DNA of 64,000 bases, taken from contig JAFYYU010000017.1 of assembly GCA_017557425.1 (NCBI GenBank), positions 1 to 64,000 on the forward strand. The letters are read 5' to 3'. Source of the stretch: Muribaculaceae bacterium (GTDB lineage Bacteria; Bacteroidota; Bacteroidia; Bacteroidales; Muribaculaceae). A program made the translations under genes and the position numbers. The notes below the pieces were generated by a model. It did no database searches. It saw nothing but the letters and a program-made list of their open reading frames with translations, and was not told where the DNA came from. Positions 45,244 through 62,558 of this stretch are shown here, in pieces (position 1 is the first letter of the stretch; every line of letters starts with the position of its first letter).

Positions 45244-45275
45244 TTTGGTCGTTAGATAAGTTTTATGTATATTTG
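45244..45275 (+). promoter_or_regulatory. Promoter of the nuo-atp operon
   Basis: TTTG (45244-45247), a 20-base spacer and TATATTTG (45268-45275) match the consensus exactly. The predicted start near 45282 leaves a leader of about 120 bases before nuoA. I found no comparable promoter inside the 17-kb operon in the short gaps I checked by eye. Confidence 0.85.
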
Positions 45276-45289
45276 CACCGTATTTAGGG

Positions 45290-45346
45290 GTTCTACTGCT
45301 TTGCTTTACGTGCGCGTGCGTGCGTAAGGTGTTGTGTAGTAGGAAC
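45290..45346 (+). promoter_or_regulatory. Leader hairpin of the nuo-atp operon
   Basis: The leader can fold with outer arms GTTCTACT/AGTA-g-GAAC (one bulge) and inner arms CTTTACG (45304-45310)/CGTAAGG (45323-45329) around a TGCGCGTGCGTG loop. No T-run follows, so it may affect RNA stability or translation rather than end transcription. No known riboswitch class is recognised. Confidence 0.5.
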
Positions 45347-45405
45347 TTTGGATGCGCCAGTGTTTAAAACCTGCCAAAAATTCAACCAAAATACTAACAT
45401 CATTT

Positions 45406-45780
45406 ATGGATTTATCAATTTTCGGAGTACAGAGCACGACGATGGCGATTACGGCGGCGTTGACCGGTGTGTTGCTGGTAGTCGGCGCCCTGGTTATCGC
45501 GTGGCTGGTTGGCCCGCGTAGCTACACTAAAAAGAAAGGCGAACCGTTTGAGTGCGGTATCCCCACCCGAGGCGACTCTATGGCCCAGTACCATGTGGGC
45601 TATTACCTGTTTGCCATCCTGTTCCTGATGTTTGACGTGGAGACGGTCTTCCTGTTCCCGTGGGCAACCATCTGCAAGAACATCGGCAGCCAGGCGCTGC
45701 TTGCCGTGGGCACTTTCCTTGTTATTCTGGTTTTAGGTCTGGCTTATGCCTGGAAGAAAGGAGCGTTGAGATGGAAGTAA
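45406..45780 (+). CDS. nuoA: NADH-quinone oxidoreductase subunit A
   Basis: This 124-residue membrane subunit of complex I has three helices and the conserved loop FECGIPTRGDS, followed by FDVETVFLFPWA. It links the membrane arm to the quinone-binding module. I chose ATG 45406; upstream in-frame sequence lies in the leader. It overlaps nuoB by 10 bases. Confidence 0.95.
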   Translation: MDLSIFGVQSTTMAITAALTGVLLVVGALVIAWLVGPRSYTKKKGEPFECGIPTRGDSMAQYHVGYYLFAILFLMFDVETVFLFPWATICKNIGSQALLAVGTFLVILVLGLAYAWKKGALRWK

Positions 45781-46370
45781 AAATCAAGTCGATGAAGCAT
45801 GAAGACTTCAAGGACAACGAATATATCGATAACCTGGTAGAGCAATTGCGTGCTGGCGGCACCAACATCATCGTGGGCAAGCTGGACCAGCTGATGAACT
45901 GGGGCGTGAGCAACTCGTTGTGGCCGCTGTGTTTCGGCACCAGCTGCTGCGCCATCGAGTTCATGTGCCTGGGCGCCGCGCGCTACGATATGGCGCGTTA
46001 CGGCTTCGAGGTAGCCCGCAACAGCCCCCGCCAAGCCGACTACATCATGTGCCAGGGTACCATCAACTACCGCATGGCCCCCGCACTGAAACGTCTGTAC
46101 GAGCAGATGGCCGAGCCCAAGTACGTTATTGCCTGCGGCTCGTGTACCGTTAGCGGCGGTCCCTTCAAGAACAGCTACTGCGTGGTCAAGGGTGTTGACG
46201 AGATCATCCCCGTTGACGTTTACCTGCCCGGCTGCCCGCCGCGTCCCGAGGCCTTCTTCTATGCCCTGATGCAGCTGCAGCGCAAGATCAAGGTGCAGAA
46301 GTACTTTGGCGGCGTGAACCGCAAGGAGAAACTGGACAACCTGCAGTACTTGCCTGAGGAGTCCAAATAA
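45771..46370 (+). CDS. nuoB: NADH-quinone oxidoreductase subunit B
   Basis: The 199-residue subunit carries the N2 iron-sulfur cluster, the last electron carrier before quinone. The ligands are seen as the paired cysteines in GTSCCAIEF, the Cys in GSCTVSGGP and the Cys in LPGCPPRPE. Start ATG 45771 lies inside the end of nuoA, which implies coupled translation. Confidence 0.96.
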   Translation: MEVKIKSMKHEDFKDNEYIDNLVEQLRAGGTNIIVGKLDQLMNWGVSNSLWPLCFGTSCCAIEFMCLGAARYDMARYGFEVARNSPRQADYIMCQGTINYRMAPALKRLYEQMAEPKYVIACGSCTVSGGPFKNSYCVVKGVDEIIPVDVYLPGCPPRPEAFFYALMQLQRKIKVQKYFGGVNRKEKLDNLQYLPEESK

Positions 46371-46395
46371 ATAACCCGATAAAATCCATTCATTT

Positions 46396-48030
46396 ATGGC
46401 AGATATAGAGAACAAAATCATCCAGTTGTGCCCCCAGGCCCAAGTTGACACCACCGGCGAGTTCCCGCTAGTGACCGTTGATGACGCGCAGTGGCACGAC
46501 TTGGCCCGCGCCCTCAAGACCCAGTTGCACTATGACGTGCTGAGCGCCGTGGTCGGCATGGACTGGACCGAAGCCCTGGGCTGCGTATATTACCTGACCA
46601 ACACCAGCACGCATGAGCTGCTGCACGTCAAGGTCGCCACTACCGACCGCGAGAATCCTCGCCTGCACTCGGTATGTGACCTGTGGCCCGTTGCCAACTT
46701 CCAGGAGCGCGAGGTGTATGACTTCTTCGGCATCGTGTTCATCGGCCATCCCGACATGCGCCGCATGTTCTTGCGCACCGACTGGGTAGGTTACCCCCTG
46801 CGCAAGGATTACGACCCCGCAACCAATCCCCTGCGTCTCGAGGACGAGACCAACGAGGACTACACCTGCCGCTGGGTTGAGGACGAGAACGGCAAGGTCA
46901 CGAAAGTGGACGGCAAGGTCTTTGAGGACGATGAGTATGTTGTCAACGTGGGCCCGCAGCACCCGTCAACCCACGGTGTGATGCGTTATCGCGCCAGCAT
47001 TGACGGCGAGGTGGTCAAGAAGATAGACGTCGTGAGCGGATATATCCACCGCGGCATCGAGAAGATGTGTGAGGACCTGACCTATCCCCAGATGCTCCTG
47101 TACACCGAGCGCATGGACTACATGGCCGCCCACATCAACCGCCACTGCATGTGCATGTGTGTGGAGAAGGCCCTCGGCCTGGAGGTTCCCCGCCGCGCCG
47201 AGCTCATCCGCCTAATGATGGACGAGCTGATGCGTCTTTCCTCCCACTTGTTGAGCTACGGCTGCTTGACTATGGACCAGGGAGCCACGACGGCGTTCTT
47301 CTACGGTTTCCGTGAACGCGAATTGATTTATGATATCTTTGACCGCACGTGCGGCGCCCGCATGTCGATGAGCTACAGCACCATTGGCGGTGTGGTTGCC
47401 GATGTGCACGAGGACTTCATCAAGGATGTGCGCCACGCGTGTGACGTGATTGAGAAGAGCCTCAAGGAATACCACAAGCTGTTTACCGGCAACGTCATCG
47501 CCGTGAACCGCATGACGGGAGTGGGCATCTTGACCAAGCAGCAGGCCATCGACTACGATATCACCGGTCCTTCGGGCCGCGCCAGCGGCTGGCACTGCGA
47601 CGTGCGCAAGACCAACCCCTACTCGCTGTACAACGAGTTCGACTTCGACGAGATTACCTATGAGAACGGTGACTCGATGGACCGCTACATGGTCCGCATG
47701 AAGGAGATGGAAGAGAGCATCAAGATTCTGCGCCAGGCCTGCGACAAGCTCGAGGTTGAGGGCATTCAGGGCGAATACATCGCTCCCAAGGTGCCCAAGA
47801 TGATGAAGCTGCCCGCCGGACACTGGTACCAGCAGGTAGAGGCCAGCCGTGGCGCCTTTGGCGTGTACATCGAGAGTGACGGCAACACCAAGCCCGTGCG
47901 CGTCCACTTCCAGTCGCCATGCTTCAACCTGGTTGGTGTGGTTGACCTGACGTGCCGTGACAACCTGATTGCCGACCTGATCACCATCACGGCGTCGCTC
48001 GACTTCGTCATCCCCGATATCGACCGCTAA
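46396..48030 (+). CDS. nuoCD: NADH-quinone oxidoreductase fused subunit CD
   Basis: This 544-residue fusion joins NuoC (about residues 1-165, with the motif REVYDFFGIVFIGHPD) to NuoD (from about 180, with VGPQHPSTHGV). NuoD forms the quinone-reduction site with NuoB. Such fusions occur in several groups, including Bacteroidota and E. coli. The next gene is nuoH; the nuoE, nuoF and nuoG genes that usually follow are absent. Confidence 0.96.
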   Translation: MADIENKIIQLCPQAQVDTTGEFPLVTVDDAQWHDLARALKTQLHYDVLSAVVGMDWTEALGCVYYLTNTSTHELLHVKVATTDRENPRLHSVCDLWPVANFQEREVYDFFGIVFIGHPDMRRMFLRTDWVGYPLRKDYDPATNPLRLEDETNEDYTCRWVEDENGKVTKVDGKVFEDDEYVVNVGPQHPSTHGVMRYRASIDGEVVKKIDVVSGYIHRGIEKMCEDLTYPQMLLYTERMDYMAAHINRHCMCMCVEKALGLEVPRRAELIRLMMDELMRLSSHLLSYGCLTMDQGATTAFFYGFRERELIYDIFDRTCGARMSMSYSTIGGVVADVHEDFIKDVRHACDVIEKSLKEYHKLFTGNVIAVNRMTGVGILTKQQAIDYDITGPSGRASGWHCDVRKTNPYSLYNEFDFDEITYENGDSMDRYMVRMKEMEESIKILRQACDKLEVEGIQGEYIAPKVPKMMKLPAGHWYQQVEASRGAFGVYIESDGNTKPVRVHFQSPCFNLVGVVDLTCRDNLIADLITITASLDFVIPDIDR

Positions 48031-48082
48031 AAAGCAACGAGTTAATCAAAACGAACAAAACCACTAAAAAAGGAAACGAGAT

Positions 48083-49165
48083 ATGTTTGACTTCGGAATA
48101 GTCACGAAATGGTTGGATGACTGGATGAACGGCTTCATGCCCGGCTGGTTGACCACTACAATCGAATGTGTGCTGGTGGCCGTAGGCCTGCTGGTCGCTT
48201 ATTCGCTCATCGCCATGTTCTACATTTTCTACGAGCGCAAGGTGTGCGGTTGGATCCAGTGCCGTCTGGGCCCGATGCGCGTGGGCAAGTGGGGCTTGCT
48301 CCAGGTGTTTGCCGACGTAATCAAGATTCTCCAAAAGGAGCTGATTACCCTGTGGCACACCGACAAGTTCCTGTTCAAGCTGGCGCCGTATCTGGTGCTT
48401 ATCGCTTCGATGCTTACCTTCGCCTGTCTGCCTTGGGGCAAGGGCCTGCAAGTCATCGACATGAACATCGGCGTATTTTTCATTATCGCCGTGTCGTCGA
48501 TTGGCGTGCTTGGCATCCTGCTCGCCGGTTGGGCCAGTAACAGCAAATACACGCTTATCGGTGCAATGCGCAGTGGCGCCCAGATGATCAGCTACGAGCT
48601 GTCGTGCGGCATCTCCATCCTGACCATCGTGTGCCTGGCGGGCACCATGTCGATCACAGGCATCGTCGAGGCGCAGCAAGACGGCTGGTTCCTGTTCAAG
48701 GGCCACCTGCCCGCCATTTTGGCGTTCATTATCTATATGATTGCCGCCAATGCCGAGAACAACCGCGGCCCGTTTGACCTCCCCGAGGCCGAGCATGAGT
48801 TGACCGCCGGTTACCACACCGAGTATTCCGGTATCCACTTCGGATTCTTCTATCTGGCCGAGTACCTGAACCTGTTCATCGTGTCGGGCATCGCCACGCT
48901 CCTGTTCCTGGGCGGCTGGATGCCGTTGCACATCCCCGGCTGGCAAGGCTTCAACCACATCATGGACTACATTCCCAGTGTGGTATGGTTCCTGGGCAAG
49001 GCTTTCTTCATCACGTTCATCTTCTTCTGGATCCGCTGGTCGTTCCCGCGCGTGCGCATCGACCAGATGCTGGCATTGGAGTGGCGTTACTTAATGCCCA
49101 TCGGCCTGGTCAACCTGGTTGTGATGGCAATTATCGTTACCCAAGGCTGGTATTTCGGTTCCTAA
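48083..49165 (+). CDS. nuoH: NADH-quinone oxidoreductase subunit H
   Basis: The 360-residue membrane subunit has about eight helices and the quinone-channel signatures [14 protein letters not shown] and [17 protein letters not shown]. It ties the quinone site to the proton-pumping arm. The gene is followed after 60 bases by atpD instead of nuoI. That short gap has no hairpin with a T-run and no exact promoter match. Confidence 0.96.
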
Positions 49166-49213
49166 TGGTGAGTCCCTATACATTATATTATAAAAACAAC
49201 CAACATCACATAA

Positions 49214-50725
<1,512 letters not shown>

Positions 50726-50762
50726 TTCACCGTTTAGTGACTTTTCATTATAACTAGATAAA

Positions 50763-50996
50763 ATGACACTCAAAATCATATCGGCTGAACAGATTGAGTT
50801 TGAAGGCACCGTCGAGCAAGTGACGCTCCCTGGCGTCATGGGCATGTTCCAGGTGCTCAAGAACCACGCCGCCCTCATTGCCGCCCTCACGGCAGGACGC
50901 ATGAGCTATGTGACCGATGGCGAGACCGTGGAACGCGATATCCACGGTGGTGTGGCCGATGTAAAGGATAATGTGGTGTCGGTTTGCTTATATTGA
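50763..50996 (+). CDS. atpC: F-type ATP synthase subunit epsilon, short form
   Basis: Only 77 residues long, it contains the N-terminal beta-sandwich (LKIISAEQIEFEG, TLPGVMGMFQVLKNHAALIA) and ends with VSVCLY. The C-terminal helical domain of the usual 130-140-residue protein is absent. In other bacteria that domain inhibits ATP hydrolysis. Short epsilon subunits are usual in Bacteroidota, so it is probably intact rather than truncated. Confidence 0.93.
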   Translation: MTLKIISAEQIEFEGTVEQVTLPGVMGMFQVLKNHAALIAALTAGRMSYVTDGETVERDIHGGVADVKDNVVSVCLY

Positions 50997-50998
50997 TT

Positions 50999-52075
50999 AT
51001 GAAAAGCAAGATCATAATAGCAATTGTCGCGCTCGTGATTGTCGCGCTGATGGGATGGGGTTACTACAGCACCGCCCAGCATCGCGCCCACGGCCACACC
51101 AGCGAGCTGAACCCCAAGGAGACCATCTTTGAGCACTTGGGCGACGCTTACGGCTGGGAAGTGCCGTTCAATCACAACGCGCGCATCCCGTTGCCCATTA
51201 TCGTGTGGGGGCAGGACGGCTTGCACTGCTTCATGAGCAACCGCATCACTGGAGGCGAGACCTATGAGGGCTTCAAGATCTCAACCAGCGAGAAATACCA
51301 CGGCAAAGTGGTTCAGGTGATGGAAGACGGCTCAGAGGTGCGTCCCTGGGACTTCTCCATTACCAAAAACGTCGCTGGACTCTTCATTGCGGCTCTGCTG
51401 GTCATCTGGATGGTCTTCTCGCTCAAGCGCTGGTATGCCCGCAACAATCTCAAGGCCCCGCGTGGTGCCAAGGGCTTCCTGGAGCTGGTGGTGGACTTCG
51501 TCTATGGCGACACCATCCGTCCCATCCTGGGCAAGCATGCGCCCAAGTATGCTCCCTACCTGCTCACAGCGTTCTTCTTCATCCTGACGATGAACCTGCT
51601 GGGACTGATCGTCATCTTCCCCGGTGGCGCCAACCTGACGGGTAACATCGCCGTGACACTGGTACTTGCCCTGTTGACGTTCCTGATCACCACCTTCAGC
51701 GGCACCCGCGAATACTGGAAGGAAATCCTGTGGCCCGAGGTCCCCATGGCCCTCAAGTGCCCTGTTCCCATGATGCAGCTCATCGAGGTGTTGGGTATGT
51801 TCACCAAGCCATTGGCCCTGATGGTCCGTCTCTTTGCCAACATGATGAGCGGCCACATGGTGGTTCTGGTGCTCGTACTGCTCATCTTCATTTTCACCAG
51901 CCTGTTCGGTGTGGGTGTGGGCATCGGCACAAGCATCTTCTCGGTAGCATTCACCCTGTTCATGCTCTTGCTCGATGTGCTGGTGAGCTTCATCCAGGCG
52001 TATGTGTTCACTATCCTGAGTACCATTTTCATCTCGATGGCGCTTGTGGAGCCTCATCACAGCGAGGCAAAATAA
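50999..52075 (+). CDS. atpB: F-type ATP synthase subunit a
   Basis: This 358-residue membrane subunit forms the proton half-channels. The essential arginine lies in PLALMVRLFANMMSGHM, equivalent to Arg210 of E. coli. An N-terminal membrane helix and an extracytoplasmic stretch of roughly 100 residues before the second helix make it much longer than E. coli subunit a (271 residues), as seen in Bacteroidota. Start ATG 50999 lies two bases after the atpC stop. Small extra genes sometimes found here (atpI or a hypothetical) are absent. Confidence 0.94.
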   Translation: MKSKIIIAIVALVIVALMGWGYYSTAQHRAHGHTSELNPKETIFEHLGDAYGWEVPFNHNARIPLPIIVWGQDGLHCFMSNRITGGETYEGFKISTSEKYHGKVVQVMEDGSEVRPWDFSITKNVAGLFIAALLVIWMVFSLKRWYARNNLKAPRGAKGFLELVVDFVYGDTIRPILGKHAPKYAPYLLTAFFFILTMNLLGLIVIFPGGANLTGNIAVTLVLALLTFLITTFSGTREYWKEILWPEVPMALKCPVPMMQLIEVLGMFTKPLALMVRLFANMMSGHMVVLVLVLLIFIFTSLFGVGVGIGTSIFSVAFTLFMLLLDVLVSFIQAYVFTILSTIFISMALVEPHHSEAK

Positions 52076-52117
52076 TAACCAGACATTTACAACAAAAAAC
52101 AAAATATTAACAATTAA

Positions 52118-52369
<252 letters not shown>

Positions 52370-52384
52370 TTCTCCCGGGTTCAG

Positions 52385-52882
52385 ATGGAACTTTTCACGC
52401 CTGAATTTGGCCTGGTGTTTTGGATGTTCTTGGCATTCCTGTGCCTGTACTTCATCCTTGCCAAGTTTGCATGGCCCTACATCATCAAGAGTATGGAGGA
52501 ACGTGCCGACAAGATTGACAAGGGTGTGGCCTACTACCAGGAAGCCGAAGCACGTCTGCAAAACGCCCAGGCCGAAGCGGACAAGTTGATTGCCCAAGCC
52601 CATAATGAGCAGGCCGACATCCTGCGAGAGGCCGCCAAGATGCGCAACGAGCTCATCGAGAATGCGCGTGGCGAGGCTGCCGACGAAGCCAAGAAGGTGA
52701 CCGAAGCAGCTCAAGTGTCGCTGGAACAGGCCCGCAAGGAGGCCGAGAAGCAACTGCGCACCGAGGTGGGTGACCTGGCGCTGCAAATCGCCGAGAAAGT
52801 CATCCGCCGCAACATCGCCAACGATGATGCCCAGCGTGCGCTTGTTGAACAATATCTGAGTGAGGTTGAGACTAAAAACTAA
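52385..52882 (+). CDS. atpF: F-type ATP synthase subunit b
   Basis: The 165-residue subunit has one N-terminal membrane helix (GLVFWMFLAFLCLYFILAKF) and a long Ala/Glu/Lys-rich helix that forms the peripheral stalk. It holds F1 against rotation together with subunit delta. Only one b-type gene is present, so the stalk should be a homodimer. Confidence 0.95.
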   Translation: MELFTPEFGLVFWMFLAFLCLYFILAKFAWPYIIKSMEERADKIDKGVAYYQEAEARLQNAQAEADKLIAQAHNEQADILREAAKMRNELIENARGEAADEAKKVTEAAQVSLEQARKEAEKQLRTEVGDLALQIAEKVIRRNIANDDAQRALVEQYLSEVETKN

Positions 52883-52888
52883 TGCGAT

Positions 52889-53431
52889 ATGAGTGACGGA
52901 CTGATTCCACGCCGATACGCCAAAGCGCTGTACAAGTACGCCGTCGAGAATGGCGACTCCCAGGAGATTTATGAGCTCTTAAAGGGCCTGAGTTTCCGCT
53001 ACACCGCTATCGACGAACTCAAGCGCGCTGTACTCAATCCAGAAATCTCTGACGAGGACAAGGGATCCTATATGCTGAAACTCGCCGGTGGCAAGCCAGG
53101 CAGTTCGCTGGACAAGTTCCTGCTGCTGTGTGTGCGCAACAACCGCGCCGAATACCTGCAGAAGATCTCCCTTGCCTATGTCGATCTCTACCGCGAGGCC
53201 CACGAGATCGCCCATGTGGTCATCACCACGGCGGCTCCCCTGCCCGAGGCCGAGGTCAATGCCATTATCGACATCGTGAAGAAGCGCCTGGGCGCCATGA
53301 CCCTCGAGATAGAGCAGGTCATCGACCCCGAGCTGATCGGCGGTTTCACTGTCAAGATCAACGACCTGGTGCTTGACGCGTCGGTAAAGAGAGAATTGAA
53401 CGAATTGCGATTACAACTGCAAAAGAAATAG
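52889..53431 (+). CDS. atpH: F-type ATP synthase subunit delta
   Basis: This 180-residue subunit starts IPRRYAKALYKYAVENG, the typical OSCP/delta opening, and ends with VIDPELIGGFTVKINDLVLDASV. It links the top of F1 to the b stalk. It is six bases after atpF and nine bases before atpA, in tight order. Confidence 0.95.
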   Translation: MSDGLIPRRYAKALYKYAVENGDSQEIYELLKGLSFRYTAIDELKRAVLNPEISDEDKGSYMLKLAGGKPGSSLDKFLLLCVRNNRAEYLQKISLAYVDLYREAHEIAHVVITTAAPLPEAEVNAIIDIVKKRLGAMTLEIEQVIDPELIGGFTVKINDLVLDASVKRELNELRLQLQKK

Positions 53432-53440
53432 AACAACACG

Positions 53441-55036
53441 ATGATTAATCCCAGTGAAATATCCGATATACTGAAACAGCAGCTCGTCGAGGACATCGCC
53501 AAGCGGCAGGTAGCCTTTGAGGAAGAAGGCACCGTGCTCGAGGTGGGCGACGGCGTGGCTCACGCCTACGGCCTGCACAATGTCGAGGCCAATGAACTCG
53601 TACGGTTCGAAAACGGCGTGACCGGCGTGGCCATGAACCTCGAGGAGAGCGACGTGGGCATCATCCTACTCGATGAGGTGGACACCGTGACCGAGAACAT
53701 GAAGGTTCGACGCACCGGTGAAATCGCATCGATCGAGGTGGGTGAAGGACTGCTGGGCCGCGTAATCAACGTCCTGGCCAAGCCCATCGACGGCAAGGGA
53801 CCCATCGAGGGTGACAAGCTGCGCCTGCCTCTGGAGCGCAAGGCGCCTGGCGTCATTTTCCGTCAGCCGGTGAACCAACCGTTGCAGACGGGTCTCAAGG
53901 CCATTGACTCGATGATTCCCATCGGCCGCGGCCAGCGTGAGCTCATCATCGGTGACCGCCAGATCGGCAAGACCGCCATCGCCGTGGACACCATCATCAA
54001 CCAGCGTGAGGGATACGAGACGGGCAAACCCGTTTACTGCATCTACGTTGCCATCGGCCAGAAAGCCTCGACCGTGGCAGCCCTTGTCAACAAGCTCGAG
54101 GAGAGCGGCGCCCTGCCCTACACCATCGTTGTGGCCGCCACGGCAGCCGACTCGGCATCGATGCGCTATTATGCCCCCTTTGCGGGTGCTGCCATCGGCG
54201 AGTACTTCCGCGACACCGGCCGTGACGCACTTGTTATCTATGACGACCTTTCAAAGCACGCTGTCGCCTACCGCGAGATCTCGCTGATTCTCAAGCGCCC
54301 CTCGGGCCGTGAGGCTTATCCCGGCGATATCTTCTACCTGCACAGCCGCCTGCTGGAACGTGCCGCCAAGATTAACGAGAACCAGGATGTGGCCAGCGTG
54401 ATGAACGACCTGCCCGAGCCGCTCAAGCCCATTGTCAAGGGCGGTGGCTCATTGACGGCGCTTCCCATCATCGAGACGCAGGCCGGCGACGTGAGCGCCT
54501 ATATCCCCACCAACGTGATTTCGATTACCGACGGTCAGATTTATCTGGAGTCGGCCCTGTTCAACTCGGGAATCCGTCCTGCGGTGAACGTGGGTATCTC
54601 GGTATCGCGTGTTGGTGGTAACGCCCAGATCAAGTGCATGAAGAAGGTGGCAGGTACACTCAAGATTGCCCAGGCACAGTACCGTGAACTCGAAGCCTTC
54701 ACCAAGTTTGGCGGTGACATCGACCCCGTTACCGCGCGCACCATCGACACGGGCCGGAAGAACGAGCGTCTGCTTGTGCAGCCGCAGTACACACCCATGA
54801 AGGTCGAGGAGCAGGTTGCCATCATCTACTGCGGTGTGAACGGCCTGTTGCGCGACGTGCCTCTTGACAAGGTAGCCGAGTTTGAAAAACTGTTTATCAA
54901 TTACCTGCGCGGCAAGCACCAGAGCGATGTGCTCGACGTGCTGCGCACCGGCAAAATCGATGATGACATCATGTCCAAACTCAAGGATGCCGCTGCCGAG
55001 GTCGCTGCTAAATATGTTGAAGCTCCTGCCAGTTAA
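53441..55036 (+). CDS. atpA: F-type ATP synthase subunit alpha
   Basis: The 531-residue noncatalytic nucleotide-binding subunit of F1 has Walker [11 protein letters not shown] and the strand [19 protein letters not shown]. The C-terminal part shows the conserved Arg region [23 protein letters not shown]. It alternates with beta in the F1 hexamer. Confidence 0.98.
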
Positions 55037-55058
55037 TCCTACAATCTAAGTTCGCAAG

Positions 55059-55943
55059 ATGTCAACATTAAGAGAACTCAAGACGCGAATAGGTTCAGTA
55101 GCCTCCACGCAGAAGACGACGAGCGCCATGAAGATGATCAGCTCGTCCAAGATGCGCAAGGCTACCGGCCAGTTGCAGCGCTTGTCCCCTTACCGCCACA
55201 TGGTGCAGCATGTCATCAGCCACCTGCTTGTCACCGACCAGCAATTTGACTCGCCGCTCATCGTCGATCGCGATGTACAGCGTGTGGCGCTGGTGGTGTT
55301 CGGCAGCGATGACGGACTGTGCGGCGGCTTCAACGTCAACATCTTCAAGCAGTTGCTTGGCACTATCACCGAGGTTCGCAAGGAATACGGCGCCCAAGTG
55401 GGCATCACCGTCATACCTGTGGGCAAAAAGATGACCAAAGCGGTCCAGAAGATTGCCGGCAAAGACATCCAGATGGAGCGCGTCGCCCTGAACACCCGCA
55501 GTGACAGCGAGGACCTTTACGCCTTCACCGATTTGATGAAGACCCGCTTCCTGGAGCACACGTTTGACCGCGTGGAGATGCTGTACATGCACTTTATCTC
55601 GACCGGTAAGCAGGTGTTTACCCGCGAACAGCTGCTGCCGGTGAGCTACCAGGGCCTGGCTGACAATGTTGACCCGCGTGCCGCCAACAGCCCCTGCCTG
55701 TTTGAGCCCGACGCCAACACCATCTTCAACACCGTGCTGCCGCTGCACATCAAGTCAATGCTCCAGGATGTGTTCATCCAGAGCACAGCCAGTGAGCAGA
55801 GCGCACGCGTGATGGCGATGCAGGCAGCGAGCGACAACGCCAAGGAATTGCTCGACGAGCTGCAACTGGAGTACAACAAACTGCGTCAGCAGGGCATCAC
55901 CACCGAGCTGCTCGACATCCTGGGTGGCCAGGTGGAACGTTGA
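55059..55943 (+). CDS. atpG: F-type ATP synthase subunit gamma
   Basis: The 294-residue rotor shaft subunit has the N-terminal helix LRELKTRIGSVASTQKTT and the C-terminal SARVMAMQAASDNAKELL, both conserved. It is the last atp gene. nuoI follows after 36 bases without a terminator, so transcription should pass on. Confidence 0.97.
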   Translation: MSTLRELKTRIGSVASTQKTTSAMKMISSSKMRKATGQLQRLSPYRHMVQHVISHLLVTDQQFDSPLIVDRDVQRVALVVFGSDDGLCGGFNVNIFKQLLGTITEVRKEYGAQVGITVIPVGKKMTKAVQKIAGKDIQMERVALNTRSDSEDLYAFTDLMKTRFLEHTFDRVEMLYMHFISTGKQVFTREQLLPVSYQGLADNVDPRAANSPCLFEPDANTIFNTVLPLHIKSMLQDVFIQSTASEQSARVMAMQAASDNAKELLDELQLEYNKLRQQGITTELLDILGGQVER

Positions 55944-55979
55944 CGCTAAATGTAAAGAAAACAAGAAAAGACTAAGAAT

Positions 55980-56543
55980 ATGAGCATTAAGGAGTATTTC
56001 GTCTCAATCTTTAAAGGCTTTTACAGCCTGATCAAGGGCATGGAGGTTACCGGCAAGGAACTGGTGACCCCCAAGGTGACCGAGCAGTATCCCGAGAACC
56101 GCGCCACGCTGGAAATTCCCGAGCGGTTCAGGGCCACGCTGGAACTCATCTACGATGACAACGGCACCCACAAGTGCATTGCTTGTGGCAGCTGCGAGCG
56201 TAATTGCCCCAACCAAACTATCAGCATCACCAAGCGCATGGTGGACTTGCCCGACGGCAAGAAGAAAATGAAGCTCGACAAGTACACGTATGACTTGGGC
56301 AGCTGCACCTTCTGCGGTCTGTGTGTTCAGGTATGTCCCACCAATGCCATCAGGTTCAGCAACGACTTTGAGCAAGCGGTATTCACTCGCGAGAAGCTTG
56401 TCAAGCAGCTTAACTACCTGCCCGAGAAGGACGAGCCCGCTCCTTCACCCGCCGTCAAGCCCGCGGCCCCAGCGCTCGAGAAGCCTGCTGCCGCCCCTGC
56501 CGCTGACGAGACCAAACAAGAAACTAAAGAAAATAAGGAATAA
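55980..56543 (+). CDS. nuoI: NADH-quinone oxidoreductase subunit I
   Basis: The 187-residue ferredoxin-like subunit carries two [4Fe-4S] clusters, with ligand runs CIACGSCERNCPN and CTFCGLCVQVCPTNAI. These pass electrons to NuoB. The last 45 residues are rich in Ala, Pro, Lys and Glu, a tail longer than in E. coli. In a complex without NuoEFG this subunit is the likely entry point for electrons. It shares one base with nuoJ. Confidence 0.96.
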   Translation: MSIKEYFVSIFKGFYSLIKGMEVTGKELVTPKVTEQYPENRATLEIPERFRATLELIYDDNGTHKCIACGSCERNCPNQTISITKRMVDLPDGKKKMKLDKYTYDLGSCTFCGLCVQVCPTNAIRFSNDFEQAVFTREKLVKQLNYLPEKDEPAPSPAVKPAAPALEKPAAAPAADETKQETKENKE

Positions 56544-57058
56544 TGGAATCAGTAGGTAACATCATTTTGTATTTTATCGTTGCGATCGCCATCATCGTCT
56601 TCTCGGTGCTGACGGTTACCACGCGCAAGATTTTGCGCTCCGCAACCTATCTGCTGTTTGTGCTGTTTGCCACAGCCATCATCTACTTCCAGATGGACTA
56701 TCAGTTCCTGGGAGCGGTACAGATCGCCGTGTATGCCGGCGGCATTCTGGTGCTGTTTGTGTTTGCCATCATGCTGACACAGCAGCCCGGGAAGAGTGCC
56801 GAGGCCTTGGCTACGCATCGCCGCTGGCTGGGACTGACGGCAGCGCTGGCAGGAGTCGCCGTGTGCGGCTATGCCCTGTTCAGCTATGCCGGCTTTGGAG
56901 GCAGGCTGCTCAGCAGCGGGGTGGACGTCAATATGGAGAAGATAGGCCAGTTCTTGTTGAGTACCGACAAGTTCGGCTATCTGTTGCCTTTTGAGGCCAT
57001 CAGTGTGTTGTTATTGGCTTGTATCATTGGAGGTGTGGTTATTGCCCGTCGCCGCTAA
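56543..57058 (+). CDS. nuoJ: NADH-quinone oxidoreductase subunit J
   Basis: This 171-residue membrane subunit has five helices, with the conserved ATYLLFVLFATAIIYF and QIAVYAGGILVLFVFAIML, the pi-bulge region of helix 3. It works with NuoA, NuoK and NuoH at the base of the membrane arm. The start codon overlaps the nuoI stop (TAATG). Confidence 0.95.
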   Translation: MESVGNIILYFIVAIAIIVFSVLTVTTRKILRSATYLLFVLFATAIIYFQMDYQFLGAVQIAVYAGGILVLFVFAIMLTQQPGKSAEALATHRRWLGLTAALAGVAVCGYALFSYAGFGGRLLSSGVDVNMEKIGQFLLSTDKFGYLLPFEAISVLLLACIIGGVVIARRR

Positions 57059-57070
57059 ACATTGAAGATT

Positions 57071-57382
57071 ATGGATTTGACACTGTTTATGTATCTTATT
57101 CCCAGCCTCATCATGTTTGGCTGCGGTGTATATGGTTTCATCACCCGCAAGAACATGATTGCGATCATGATTTCACTGGAGTTGATGCTCAACTCGGTGG
57201 ATATCAACTTTGTGGTGTTTAACCGTTACCTGTTCCCCGGTCAGATGGACGGCATGTTCTTCTCGCTGTTCGCGATAGCCATCGCGGCTGCCGAGACGGC
57301 GCTTGCCCTTGCCATCATCATCAATGTGTTCCGCATTGCCAAGAACGTGGACATCAACCAAATCACTAAACTGAAATTCTAA
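57071..57382 (+). CDS. nuoK: NADH-quinone oxidoreductase subunit K
   Basis: The 103-residue subunit has three helices with the conserved GVYGFITRKNMIAIMISLELMLN region and a second acidic site in AIAAAETALALAIII, both important for proton transfer. I chose ATG 57071; a TTG three codons up is possible. It is five bases from nuoL. Confidence 0.96.
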   Translation: MDLTLFMYLIPSLIMFGCGVYGFITRKNMIAIMISLELMLNSVDINFVVFNRYLFPGQMDGMFFSLFAIAIAAAETALALAIIINVFRIAKNVDINQITKLKF

Positions 57383-57387
57383 CGATT

Positions 57388-59385
57388 ATGCCATTAAGTT
57401 TAGCAATAGTAGTTGTAGCATTACCCCTGCTGATGTTCCTGTTCCTGGGACTCGTCGGGGTGAAAATGGGTAGAAAAATCACGGGTGTGATTGGCGTGCT
57501 GGCGATGCTCGTCGATACCGTCCTTGCCTATGGCGTGGCGCTGACCTATTTCTTCGGCAGCGGTCAAGGCCAAGTGGTGGACGGAGTGCGTCAAGCCGTT
57601 GTTGTTGCCAATCCCGCCTGGTTGTCATTCACCGACACGCTGGTGGTGCGGATGGGTGTCCTGGTTGACCCCATCGCCGCGATGATGCTTGTGGTCATCA
57701 CCACGGTATCGCTGATGGTGCACCTTTACAGCCTCGGGTACATGAGCGACCATGACGGCAACGCTGAGAAGGGATTCCAGCGTTATTATGCCTTCCTGGC
57801 GCTGTTCACGTTCTCGATGCTGGGTCTGGTGGTTGCCACCAACATTTTCCAGATTTTCGTCTTCTTTGAGATGGTGGGTCTGTCATCCTACCTGCTCATT
57901 GGTTTCTATTATTCGACGCCTGCCGCCAACCATGCCAACAAGAAGGCCTTTATCGTGACCCGTCTGGCCGACCTGTTCTTCCTGTTGGGTATCATGATAT
58001 TGAGCTATTACACTGGCACCTTCGACTTCGACAAGCTGGTCTTCGGGCCCACGATGTCTGGTAGCCTGGAAACGGCCCAGAGCGCCATCAGCACTGCCGG
58101 AGGCGCTACCTTCATGGGCTGCTCGGTGATGGCATGGGCGCTGACCTTCATCTTCATCGGCGGTGCCGGTAAGAGTGCGATGTACCCGTTGCACATCTGG
58201 CTGCCCGATGCCATGGAGGGCCCGACGCCCGTCTCGGCGTTGATCCATGCCGCTACGATGGTTGTTGCCGGTGTATTCCTGGTAGCAAGGCTGTTCCCGC
58301 TGTATGTACTCGTTCAGGGTGCAATGAACATCATCCTGGTTGTTGGCGCGTTCACGGCATTCTATGCCGCCGCCATCGCTTGCACCCAGAGCGATATCAA
58401 ACGTGCGCTGGCCTTCTCGACCATCTCGCAGATCGCCTTCATGATGACTTCATTGGCTGTATCGTCTAACCAGAACGCTCTCATTGAGATTCATGAGGGT
58501 TACGGCCTGGGCTACATGGCGTCGATGTTCCACCTGTTCACCCACGCTATGTTCAAGGCGTTGCTCTTCCTGTGCGCCGGTGCCATCATCCACGCTGTTC
58601 ACAGCAATGAGAACAGCAAGATGCACGGCCTGCACAAGTACATGCCCATCACCAGCATCTGCTTCTTCATCGGCTGTCTGGCGATTGCCGGTATTCCCCC
58701 GTTCGCCGGTTTCTGGAGTAAGGACGAAATCCTTGTCGCCGCTTACCAGCGCGGCCTGGGTTGGGGCATCTGGATGTCGATGGTGGCCGGTATGACCGCC
58801 TTCTACATGTTCCGCATCTATTACCTCATCTTCTTCTGGAAGAAACATGAGGTACACGACGAACATCACAAGCCCAAGGACCAGCCCTGGACGATGACGC
58901 TGCCGTTGATCATCCTGGCTGCCATCTCGTGTGTTGCGGGCTTCGTTCCCTTCCACGACCTGGTTACCTGGGACGGCAAGGCGCTGCACACTGCCCTCGA
59001 CATGAAAGTGGCTGGCACGAGCGTCGTCATCGCTTTGTTGGGCATTGCCCTGGCCACAGTGATGTACTACAAGGAGAACAAGTTGCCCGAACGCATGGCC
59101 AATGCGATGCGTGGCCTCTGGACGGCCAGCTACAAGCGCTTCTACATGGACGAGCTCTACCAGTTCATCACCCACAAGGTGATTTTCCAGGGCATCTGTG
59201 TGCCCATTGCCTGGTTTGACCGCCACATCATCGACGGTTTTATGAACCTGATGGCCGATGCGACCAACTCGCTGTCATTCGGCATCCGTCGCATGCAGTC
59301 GGGCAGCATCCAGGCCTATGTGTATGTGTATCTGCTGGGAGCCCTGCTGCTTGGCGTAATCACCATGATATGTGTAATCTTCTAA
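57388..59385 (+). CDS. nuoL: NADH-quinone oxidoreductase subunit L
   Basis: This 665-residue antiporter-like subunit is at the far end of the membrane arm. It shows FFEMVGLSSYLLIG with the key Glu, GAGKSAMYPLHIWLPDAMEGPTP with the key Lys, and HAATMVVAGVFL. A long C-terminal amphipathic region and final membrane helix fit the lateral arm typical of NuoL. Confidence 0.97.
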   Translation: MPLSLAIVVVALPLLMFLFLGLVGVKMGRKITGVIGVLAMLVDTVLAYGVALTYFFGSGQGQVVDGVRQAVVVANPAWLSFTDTLVVRMGVLVDPIAAMMLVVITTVSLMVHLYSLGYMSDHDGNAEKGFQRYYAFLALFTFSMLGLVVATNIFQIFVFFEMVGLSSYLLIGFYYSTPAANHANKKAFIVTRLADLFFLLGIMILSYYTGTFDFDKLVFGPTMSGSLETAQSAISTAGGATFMGCSVMAWALTFIFIGGAGKSAMYPLHIWLPDAMEGPTPVSALIHAATMVVAGVFLVARLFPLYVLVQGAMNIILVVGAFTAFYAAAIACTQSDIKRALAFSTISQIAFMMTSLAVSSNQNALIEIHEGYGLGYMASMFHLFTHAMFKALLFLCAGAIIHAVHSNENSKMHGLHKYMPITSICFFIGCLAIAGIPPFAGFWSKDEILVAAYQRGLGWGIWMSMVAGMTAFYMFRIYYLIFFWKKHEVHDEHHKPKDQPWTMTLPLIILAAISCVAGFVPFHDLVTWDGKALHTALDMKVAGTSVVIALLGIALATVMYYKENKLPERMANAMRGLWTASYKRFYMDELYQFITHKVIFQGICVPIAWFDRHIIDGFMNLMADATNSLSFGIRRMQSGSIQAYVYVYLLGALLLGVITMICVIF

Positions 59386-59419
59386 CCAACGGTCTAACAA
59401 AATAGAAAGGATATATCAA

Positions 59420-60952
59420 ATGGAACTTTTCAATAATATACTGATTTACTTTGTGATCGTGCCTCTGCTGACGCTTGGAGGCCTGGCTCTTTGCCGCAAC
59501 CGCGGCATCAAGGCCATCAGGACCGTTGCAGTCATCGGCGCCAGCGTGCTGATGGTACTGGCCATCTGGTTGGTGAGCATCTTCTTGAGCGCTCGTGCCG
59601 GTGGAGACACCAGTGAGATGATCCTGCGCAGCGACGTGCTGTGGTATGCCCCGTTCAATGTCCACCTGGCATTGGGCGTGGACGGCGTGAGCGTCGTGAT
59701 GATATTACTGTCGGCATTCATTGTGTTCGCCGGTGTGTTCGCCTCGTGGAAGATGAACCCGCTACCCAAGCAGTTCTTCATGTGGTTCTTCCTGTTGTCC
59801 ACGGGTGTGTTCGGCTTCTTCATCTCGATCGACCTGTTCACGATGTTCATGTTCTATGAGGTCGCTCTGATTCCCATGTACCTGCTGATTGGCGTGTGGG
59901 GCAGCGGCAACAAGAACTACAGCGCGATGAAACTGACCCTGATGCTGATGGGTGGCTCAGCCTTCCTGATGCTCGGCCTGATCGGTATCTATTTCCACTC
60001 GGCTCCCGAGGGTCAGCCGCTGACGATGAACATTCTGGACATCGCCCATAACAATGCCATCCCGCACAGCTGGCAATACCTGCTGTTCCCGCTGACGTTT
60101 GTCGGCTTTGGCGTGCTGGGTGCCATGTTCCCGTTCCACACATGGTCTCCCGACGGTCATGCCTCGGCGCCCACGGCGGTGTCGATGCTCCACGCCGGTG
60201 TACTGATGAAGCTTGGTGGTTACGGCTGCTTCCGCATCGCCATCTACCTGATGCCTTTCGCAGCCAACCAATTGGCATGGATTTTCCTGCTGCTGACGGG
60301 CTTCAGCATCGTCTATGGTGCGTTGAGCGCCTGTGTGCAGACCGACCTCAAGTACATCAACGCTTACTCGTCGGTTAGTCACTGCGGTATGGTGCTGTTT
60401 GCCATCCTGATGTTCAACACCACTGCGATGACCGGTGCCGTGCTTCAGATGCTCTCTCACGGTCTGATGACGGCCCTGTTCTTTGCCCTCATCGGTATGA
60501 TCTATGGCCGCACCCACACGCGTGACATCCGTGACATGGGCGGTATGATGCACATCATGCCTTACTTGGGCGTGGGATATGTGATTGCCGGTCTGGCATC
60601 GTTGGGTCTGCCGTTCCTGAGCGGTTTTGCTGCCGAGATGACCATTTTCATGGGCTCGTTCCAGCACACCGACCTGTTCCACCGCGTACTCACCATCATG
60701 GCGACCACCTCGATTGTGGTGACAGCGGTTTACATCCTGCGCGTTGTCGCCAAGCTGCTCTTTGGCGAGGTACAGGATGAGCACCACCGCTCGCTGACCG
60801 ATGCCACCTGGGAGGAGCGCCTCTCGACTGCCACACTGATTCTTGCCGTGGCTGCCATCGGTTGCTTCCCCAACTTCTTTATTAACATCATCAGCAGCAG
60901 TTTTGACCCCGTCGTTAAGGCGTTGCAGGCTGCTCTGCCCAATGTGTTGTGA
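59420..60952 (+). CDS. nuoM: NADH-quinone oxidoreductase subunit M
   Basis: The 510-residue antiporter-like subunit has the key Glu in FMFYEVALIPMYLLIG, FPFHTWSPDGHASAPTAVSM and the histidine-rich region typical of NuoM. It provides one of the proton paths in the membrane arm. Confidence 0.97.
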   Translation: MELFNNILIYFVIVPLLTLGGLALCRNRGIKAIRTVAVIGASVLMVLAIWLVSIFLSARAGGDTSEMILRSDVLWYAPFNVHLALGVDGVSVVMILLSAFIVFAGVFASWKMNPLPKQFFMWFFLLSTGVFGFFISIDLFTMFMFYEVALIPMYLLIGVWGSGNKNYSAMKLTLMLMGGSAFLMLGLIGIYFHSAPEGQPLTMNILDIAHNNAIPHSWQYLLFPLTFVGFGVLGAMFPFHTWSPDGHASAPTAVSMLHAGVLMKLGGYGCFRIAIYLMPFAANQLAWIFLLLTGFSIVYGALSACVQTDLKYINAYSSVSHCGMVLFAILMFNTTAMTGAVLQMLSHGLMTALFFALIGMIYGRTHTRDIRDMGGMMHIMPYLGVGYVIAGLASLGLPFLSGFAAEMTIFMGSFQHTDLFHRVLTIMATTSIVVTAVYILRVVAKLLFGEVQDEHHRSLTDATWEERLSTATLILAVAAIGCFPNFFINIISSSFDPVVKALQAALPNVL

Positions 60953-60990
60953 TGAAAGTGTTTAACCTGATAAAAATTGCATAAAAAGAT

Positions 60991-62460
60991 ATGATGGATT
61001 ATTCACAGTTCTTATTGATGCCGCAGGAGATAGGCCTGTTGCTGGTTTTCCTGCTAGTTTTCATCTATGACACTTTCATGCCAGAGCGCTCACAGCGTTA
61101 TATGCCTATTTTCTCGGTCATCATGATGGCGCTCTACACGATATACTGCTTCTGTTTTCCCGCTGGCGTGGGTGAGGCCTTCGGCGGCATGTTCGAGTCC
61201 AACGCTCCCACCTGGGTGATGAAGAACATCCTCAATGTGGGTGTCGTGCTGGTGCTCCTGCAGGCCGTGAAATGGACCAACAATGACTTCGTGAGCGTTC
61301 GCCGCGGCGAGTTCTACGAGTTGATCCTGCTGACATTGCTGGGCATGTTCCTGATGATATCGGCCCGCCACTTCCTGCTGTTCGTCATCGGTCTGGAGAC
61401 GGCGTCACTGCCCATCGCTGCCCTGGCAGCGTTTGAGAAACGCTACTATGAGTCCCACGAGGCTGCTGCGAAGTATATCTTCACCGCCATCTTCTCGTCG
61501 GCGATTTTCCTATTGGGAATCTCGTTCGTCTATGGCATGAGTGGCTCATTGTACTTCAAGGATATCGCCACCACGCTCATCGGCAACCGCTCTGCACTGC
61601 TGATTGCCTCCCTGGCGTTTGTCATCGCCGGTGTGGGTTTCAAGCTGTCGCTTGTTCCCTTCCACCAGTGGACTGCCGACGTTTACCAGGGCGCACCCAC
61701 TGCTGTTACCAGCTACCTGTCGGTTATCAGCAAGGGCGCTGCGGCGTTCTCGTTCCTGGTGATTCTGGTGCAGGTGTTCGGCTCGGCCTACTCCCAGGTG
61801 TGGGAGTGGATGCTCTATGCCATCATCGTGCTCACCATCACTATCGGTAACCTGTTCGCCATCCGTCAGCGCAACCTCAAGCGCTTCCTGGCGTTCTCGT
61901 CAATCTCGCAGGCCGGTTACATCATGCTCGGCATCATCGCCGTGAACGTGATGGGCATGTCCTCGATGATTTACTATGTGCTGGTTTACATCTTCAGCAA
62001 CCTCGCCGCCTTCGGCGTGATTGCCGCTATTGAGCGTCAGACCGGCAAGGTGACGATGGACGACTACAACGGTCTGTTCAAGACCAATCCCTGGCTGGCC
62101 TTCACGATGATGCTGGCGATGTTCTCGCTGGGCGGTATTCCCCCGTTTGCAGGCTTCTTCAGCAAGTTCTTCATCTTTGTGGGCGCATGCCACCAGGGTA
62201 CGGTAGCCATCTACATCCTCGTGCTCATCGCGTTGATCAACACCATCATCTCGTTGTACTACTACCTGCTGGTGGTTAAGGCGATGTTCCTGCGCCAGGA
62301 CGATTGTGTGATTCCCACCATCAAGAGCCACTGGACCGAGCGTACAGGCCTCATCCTGTGCACGCTGGGCATCATCTTCATCGGCTTAATCAGCTGCATC
62401 TACGCTTACATTAACGGCACCGTTGACGCCATTGGCGCCATGTTTGCTGCCATTCAGTAA
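60991..62460 (+). CDS. nuoN: NADH-quinone oxidoreductase subunit N
   Basis: This 489-residue antiporter-like subunit contains FVIGLETASLPIAALAAFEK with the key Glu, and SLVPFHQWTADVYQGAPT. It is the last gene of the operon and is followed by a clear terminator. ATG 60991 and 60994 are both possible starts. Confidence 0.97.
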   Translation: MMDYSQFLLMPQEIGLLLVFLLVFIYDTFMPERSQRYMPIFSVIMMALYTIYCFCFPAGVGEAFGGMFESNAPTWVMKNILNVGVVLVLLQAVKWTNNDFVSVRRGEFYELILLTLLGMFLMISARHFLLFVIGLETASLPIAALAAFEKRYYESHEAAAKYIFTAIFSSAIFLLGISFVYGMSGSLYFKDIATTLIGNRSALLIASLAFVIAGVGFKLSLVPFHQWTADVYQGAPTAVTSYLSVISKGAAAFSFLVILVQVFGSAYSQVWEWMLYAIIVLTITIGNLFAIRQRNLKRFLAFSSISQAGYIMLGIIAVNVMGMSSMIYYVLVYIFSNLAAFGVIAAIERQTGKVTMDDYNGLFKTNPWLAFTMMLAMFSLGGIPPFAGFFSKFFIFVGACHQGTVAIYILVLIALINTIISLYYYLLVVKAMFLRQDDCVIPTIKSHWTERTGLILCTLGIIFIGLISCIYAYINGTVDAIGAMFAAIQ

Positions 62461-62526
62461 GAACCCATAGACTTCTGATATCATTTAGCATAACCAAATG
62501 TAGAATTGAGCATTCTTCAATTCATG

Positions 62527-62558
62527 GAGTATCGCGGACTACCGCGATACTCTTTTTT
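62527..62558 (+). terminator. Terminator of the nuo-atp operon
   Basis: Perfect arms GAGTATCGCGG and CCGCGATACTC around ACTA are followed by six T. It lies 66 bases past the nuoN stop and is the first strong rho-independent terminator seen after 45,244. Confidence 0.95.

Follow-up and report, generated by a model that had tools for sequence, protein, structure and literature searches.

The closest described system is the respiratory locus of the S24-7 family (also known as Candidatus Homeothermaceae, now called Muribaculaceae), in which, according to the excerpted text of Ormerod et al. 2016 (PMC4936053), an F-type ATP synthase is integrated within the complex I locus. In the same excerpt S24-7 is placed nearest to Barnesiella and Coprobacter. 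A second reference point is Bacteroides fragilis, whose nuo genes are given, in the excerpted text of PMC7002350, as ten consecutive locus tags (BF638R_0850-0841); because the tags are consecutive, no atp genes lie inside this operon. The expectation that Bacteroides is arranged differently from the locus described here therefore holds at least for B. fragilis, as far as that excerpt goes (PMC7002350).

The DNA analysed here (the window) is a stretch of 64,000 nucleotides that forms part of contig 15 of a 2.58 Mb assembly, which consists of 24 contigs and is 85% complete. Eighteen consecutive nuo and atp genes occupy positions 45244-62558 on one strand, in the order nuoA-B-CD-H, atpD-C-B-E-F-H-A-G and nuoI-J-K-L-M-N, with all 18 assigned by NCBIfam models (Table 1). 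This bears out the original prediction of an atp operon embedded between nuoH and nuoI, in gene content, order and strand, as well as its claim that no intergenic gap exceeds 60 bases, the maximum of 60 being reached at nuoH-atpD and the atpG-nuoI gap measuring 36. The nuoA, atpC, nuoI and nuoJ products missed the curated cut-offs, though each matched the right family. Translation of nuoA probably starts at the ATG at 45406 rather than at 45352, and nuoB starts at the ATG at 45771, overlapping nuoA by 10 bases. Upstream of the locus, an open reading frame at 43210-44994 matches tetratricopeptide-repeat models, with full-length models below their cut-offs.

Table 1. Features of the embedded nuo-atp locus (positions in the window)
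Feature	Position	Strand	Evidence
Bacteroidales-type promoter motif, TTTG-N20-TATATTTG	45244..45275	+	exact match to the consensus assumed here
nuoA	45352..45780	+	NuoA models, best E 1e-29, below cut-offs
nuoB	45771..46370	+	NF011391 above cut-off; frame scanned from 45660
nuoCD fusion	46396..48030	+	NF004739 (NuoD) above cut-off; N-terminal part matches NuoC models
nuoH	48083..49165	+	NF004741 above cut-off
nuoH-atpD junction	49166..49225	+	60 bases; promoter motif or terminator-like site not found
atpD (beta)	49226..50725	+	TIGR01039 above cut-off
atpC (epsilon, short form)	50763..50996	+	TIGR01216 54.1 bits, below cut-off 67.25
atpB (a subunit, N-terminal extension)	50984..52075	+	TIGR01131 above cut-off
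atpE (c subunit)	52130..52369	+	TIGR01260 above cut-off
atpF (b)	52385..52882	+	TIGR01144 above cut-off
atpH (delta)	52889..53431	+	TIGR01145 above cut-off
atpA (alpha)	53441..55036	+	TIGR00962 above cut-off
atpG (gamma)	55059..55943	+	TIGR01146 above cut-off
atpG-nuoI junction	55944..55979	+	36 bases, unstructured in the window
nuoI	55980..56543	+	TIGR01971 108.8 bits, below cut-off 113.05
nuoJ	56543..57058	+	NuoJ models, best E 3e-22, below cut-offs
nuoK	57062..57382	+	NF004320 above cut-off
nuoL	57388..59385	+	NF005141 above cut-off
nuoM	59420..60952	+	TIGR01972 above cut-off
nuoN	60991..62460	+	TIGR01770 above cut-off
terminator-like hairpin, 12-pair stem and T-run	62526..62553	+	hairpin scan

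The locus encodes a complete F-type ATP synthase (alpha, beta, gamma, delta, epsilon, a, b and c), and the only three PF00006 matches in the genome are its atpA, its atpD and a 692-residue frame on contig 20. Its complex I comprises 11 subunits encoded by ten genes (nuoA, B, CD and H-N), with nuoE, nuoF and nuoG absent from the locus. In both respects the locus is the same as that of S24-7, for which the excerpt describes an 11-subunit complex I without NuoEFG and an integrated F-type ATP synthase (PMC4936053); the B. fragilis operon, in the excerpted description, likewise has ten nuo genes and lacks nuoEFG (PMC7002350). The organism appears to belong to the S24-7/Muribaculaceae family. The embedded nuo-atp locus is real, and for this family it is already known from the excerpted report (PMC4936053). 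What the present analysis adds to that text is the gene-by-gene order, together with relatives of the Coprobacter and Barnesiella types and four unnamed families.

The nuoH to atpD adjacency is retained in 124 of the 128 same-family genomes that contain nuoH (129 searched, scripted count), with both genes on the same strand and the two matches 21-176 bases apart (median 55), and its retention in so many genomes argues that the junction is more than chance. In the four exceptions (G201, G203, G231 and G249) the contig ends inside nuoH or at most 136 bases beyond it, and in G249 atpD sits 81 bases from the end of a different contig. All 18 genes are found in identical order in G248, a single contig of 3.3 Mb, and on contig C1 of G213, also 3.3 Mb. 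Combined loss of the two complexes was considered for G195, the genome with no nuoH match; a contig break is likelier because the contig stops within atpD and atpG adjoins nuoI.

In records from named sources the two genes are adjacent in 51 of 71 loci, the gap reaching about 105 bases at most; the 71 loci are fewer than 71 independent genomes, as some records share a MAG (e.g. L036 and L058). Two further sequences (L087 and L092) end inside nuoH, and in the remaining 16 loci, mostly from Chitinophagaceae or more distant groups, no atp genes were found in the interval from nuoH to the following nuo gene. In one locus, L060, atpD lies about 2.4 kb after nuoH. By eye, the intervening stretch (L060:11075-13454) holds a long repeat-rich frame of about 2.3 kb, BspA-like and with a dockerin-like end; a 98%-identical stretch follows nuoH in L058 (2284-3607), a sequence from the same MAG lineage that ends before atpD. 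The nearest loci, whose NuoH is 91-98% identical to that of the window, are labelled Muribaculaceae, Prevotellaceae, Porphyromonadaceae or Bacteroidales, and where an animal is named in the title it is a ruminant, such as goat, sheep, roe deer or water buffalo. The window does come from a single MAG of 24 contigs and 85% completeness, which might suggest an assembly artefact; this reading is refuted, and its probability is negligible, because independent assemblies carry the identical order, with the junction present in 124 of the 128 family genomes, including chromosome-size contigs, and in 51 of the 71 named loci.

In a sample of 159 genomes of the order, 60 had NuoH at 50% identity or more, and nuoH and atpD were adjacent in 11 of them and not in the other 49, counted by eye among the matches listed, with the weakest matches omitted. 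The 11 genomes span seven families, most of which are represented there by one or two genomes. The proposed search and clade map give an arrangement that is embedded in seven families and not order-wide. Besides the window's own family these are a Coprobacter-type family, a Barnesiella-like family and four unnamed ones. The AtpG of G060 is a 100% match to Coprobacter tertius, and in the Barnesiella-like family (f109) the AtpG of G440 shares 99% identity with a protein listed under Barnesiella intestinihominis, with nuoI following atpG in 9/9 genomes. In family f28, nuoI follows atpG in all seven genomes with an AtpG match (8 searched), and in f22, where nine genomes have AtpG, four loci were inspected, of which two are whole and embedded and two, covering the surroundings of atpG, have nuoI next. 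The novelty implied by the original prediction is lost: every genome of the family sample that could be tested has the order, it also occurs in six more families, and the arrangement was published for S24-7 in 2016. An independent origin elsewhere in the class was also sought; among the matches listed for 149 genomes, judged by eye, nuoH and atpD were adjacent only in the window genome. In a Bacteroidales MAG (L078:1-7510) the end of the atp operon, atpH-A-G, precedes nuoA by about 4.7 kb, a proximity that differs in kind from embedding.

A tree was built from five Nuo proteins (NuoCD, H, L, M and N) of 20 loci. All 12 loci with the embedded arrangement group in one clade (support 100), and its sister group (support 96) contains three genomes with a separate nuo operon, including the Odoribacter-like G106. 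Since the embedded loci form one clade and their sister group has a separate nuo operon, the simplest explanation of the arrangement is that the atp operon entered once, between nuoH and nuoI. The AtpG of G106 is 70% identical to that of Odoribacter splanchnicus, and this genome has the same internal nuo order and the same internal atp order as the window, but its operons are both intact and lie convergently, about 11 kb apart, on contig 8 (L016 and L017), whereas in the window one is embedded in the other. Within the tree, the window's clade adjoins the Barnesiella-like and Coprobacter families, matching the placement of S24-7 in the excerpted text of PMC4936053.

The Bacteroidales promoter presumably has the form TTTG-N20-TAnnTTTG, and TTTG-N18-22-TAnnTTTG was used for scanning because the sigma-70 consensus is not that of Bacteroidales; a sigma-70 scan (25 sites, 12.7 expected) was set aside. 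An exact promoter had been predicted in front of the locus, and the motif listed in Table 1 agrees with this, measured against the assumed consensus. At the two junctions the best motif matches within 250 bases upstream have 3 (atpD) and 5 (nuoI) mismatches, and the search for terminator-like sites gave none behind either nuoH or atpG in the window, as predicted. The strong terminator proposed for the end of the locus fares less evenly: the hairpin with a T-run behind nuoN tops the 18 sites of the scan (12 pairs, 7 of them G-C), but in total the scan gives about as many sites as chance would (16.3 expected).

The comparison was extended to 53 embedded loci with matches to nuoA, nuoH, atpD, atpG and nuoI and a nuoH-atpD distance below 400 bases, a set that leaves out cut loci and L060 with its insertion and in which many members are close relatives. 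Within 250 bases upstream, the motif with at most one mismatch occurs before nuoA in 40/53, before atpD in 3/53 and before nuoI in 1/53, and exact matches number 20, 0 and 0 respectively. The junction counts equal background, because nine other internal genes of the same loci, which served as the control instead of shuffled sequence, give 0 to 4 of 48-53. Weighing against a single unit, in 13 divergent loci the corresponding counts with at most one mismatch are 6, 2 and 0, and terminator-like sites follow nuoN in 6/12, nuoH in 1/13 and atpG in 2/13. Across the 53 loci the junctions measure 26-106 bases (nuoH-atpD) and 9-179 bases (atpG-nuoI). Motif distribution and spacing favour one transcription unit for the 18 genes, and the single unit of the original prediction gains support of a comparative kind, from motifs that cluster ahead of nuoA and seldom occur at the junctions.

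Taken together, this is very probably an ordinary respiratory locus of one Bacteroidales clade, into which the atp operon was inserted once, and in which pump and synthase would be coupled under one promoter. A ten-gene, 11-subunit complex I operon lacking NuoEFG would have taken up, in one event and between nuoH and nuoI, all the genes of an F-type ATP synthase, in a clade that comprises the Muribaculaceae-type, Barnesiella-type and Coprobacter-type families and four unnamed ones. The 18 genes would then most likely be transcribed from the promoter before nuoA to the hairpin after nuoN.

The junction between atpG and nuoI bears on the coupling. In the 13 divergent loci it is the longest internal gap (median 87 bases), and against 60 mononucleotide shuffles per gap it is significantly structured in 3/10 testable loci, compared with 0/9 for nuoH-atpD and 0/9 for atpB-atpE. 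The structured gaps, in Coprobacter tertius (L013), L011 and L009, have minimum free energies of -18.3 to -28.9 kcal/mol and z scores of -3.5 to -6.1, and the Coprobacter hairpin is followed by TATATTTG, which resembles a -7 box. These features, and the presence of another gene at the nuoH-atpD junction of L060, would fit a locus whose two complexes are adjacent but independently expressed, through internal promoters, hairpins or differential mRNA decay, with the order kept by ancestry. Such a reading shares the anatomy and origin of the preferred explanation and denies the coupling alone. It appears doubtful, as the junctions are short in the 53 loci (distances of 400 bases or more being left out of that set), the promoter motifs cluster upstream of nuoA, the window's own atpG-nuoI gap has no comparable hairpin, and single structured cases at atpE-atpF (1/1) and atpA-atpG (1/2) of the divergent loci indicate that structure is not specific to the junction. 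The same hairpins could instead belong to a super-operon fixed in one Bacteroidales clade and read as one message, in which, in some lineages, they would act as a tunable site of processing or attenuation and so reset the ratio; this is improbable, the more so given the single structured gaps at atpE-atpF and atpA-atpG. Because some relatives have structured atpG-nuoI gaps, it is not safe to conclude that the pump-to-synthase ratio is fixed across the clade, and these gaps leave room for post-transcriptional tuning.

As the locus lacks nuoEFG, its complex I is not of the usual NADH-driven type. The sole NuoF-domain (PF01512) match in the genome is a 635-residue protein with ferredoxin-like ends on contig 9, encoded beside a ribosomal protein S1 gene, and NqrF is also present. 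The c subunit AtpE lacks what we take to be the Na+ ligand residues, which would suit a proton-pumping complex I. Under the preferred reading of a coupled pump and synthase, complex I would deliver electrons to menaquinone while pumping protons, and would draw them from a donor that is not NADH but perhaps reduced ferredoxin, and the co-expressed ATP synthase, presumably of the proton type, would consume the resulting gradient, a coupling from which the cell may benefit. According to the excerpted text, NADH:quinone activity was not seen for the complex of the same kind in B. fragilis, from which the authors infer a different donor (PMC7002350).

The clade map, with its seven families in one clade, modestly extends the excerpted text of PMC4936053, and an earlier mention of the wider clade is possible; the structured atpG-nuoI junction is a small addition to published knowledge. 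When the respiratory genes are fused into one locus, a single event can remove both complex I and ATP synthase, and the S24-7 genome H5 is described in the excerpt as lacking both alike (PMC4936053). The embedded locus offers a natural system for the question of how cells set the ratio of ion pump to ATP synthase.
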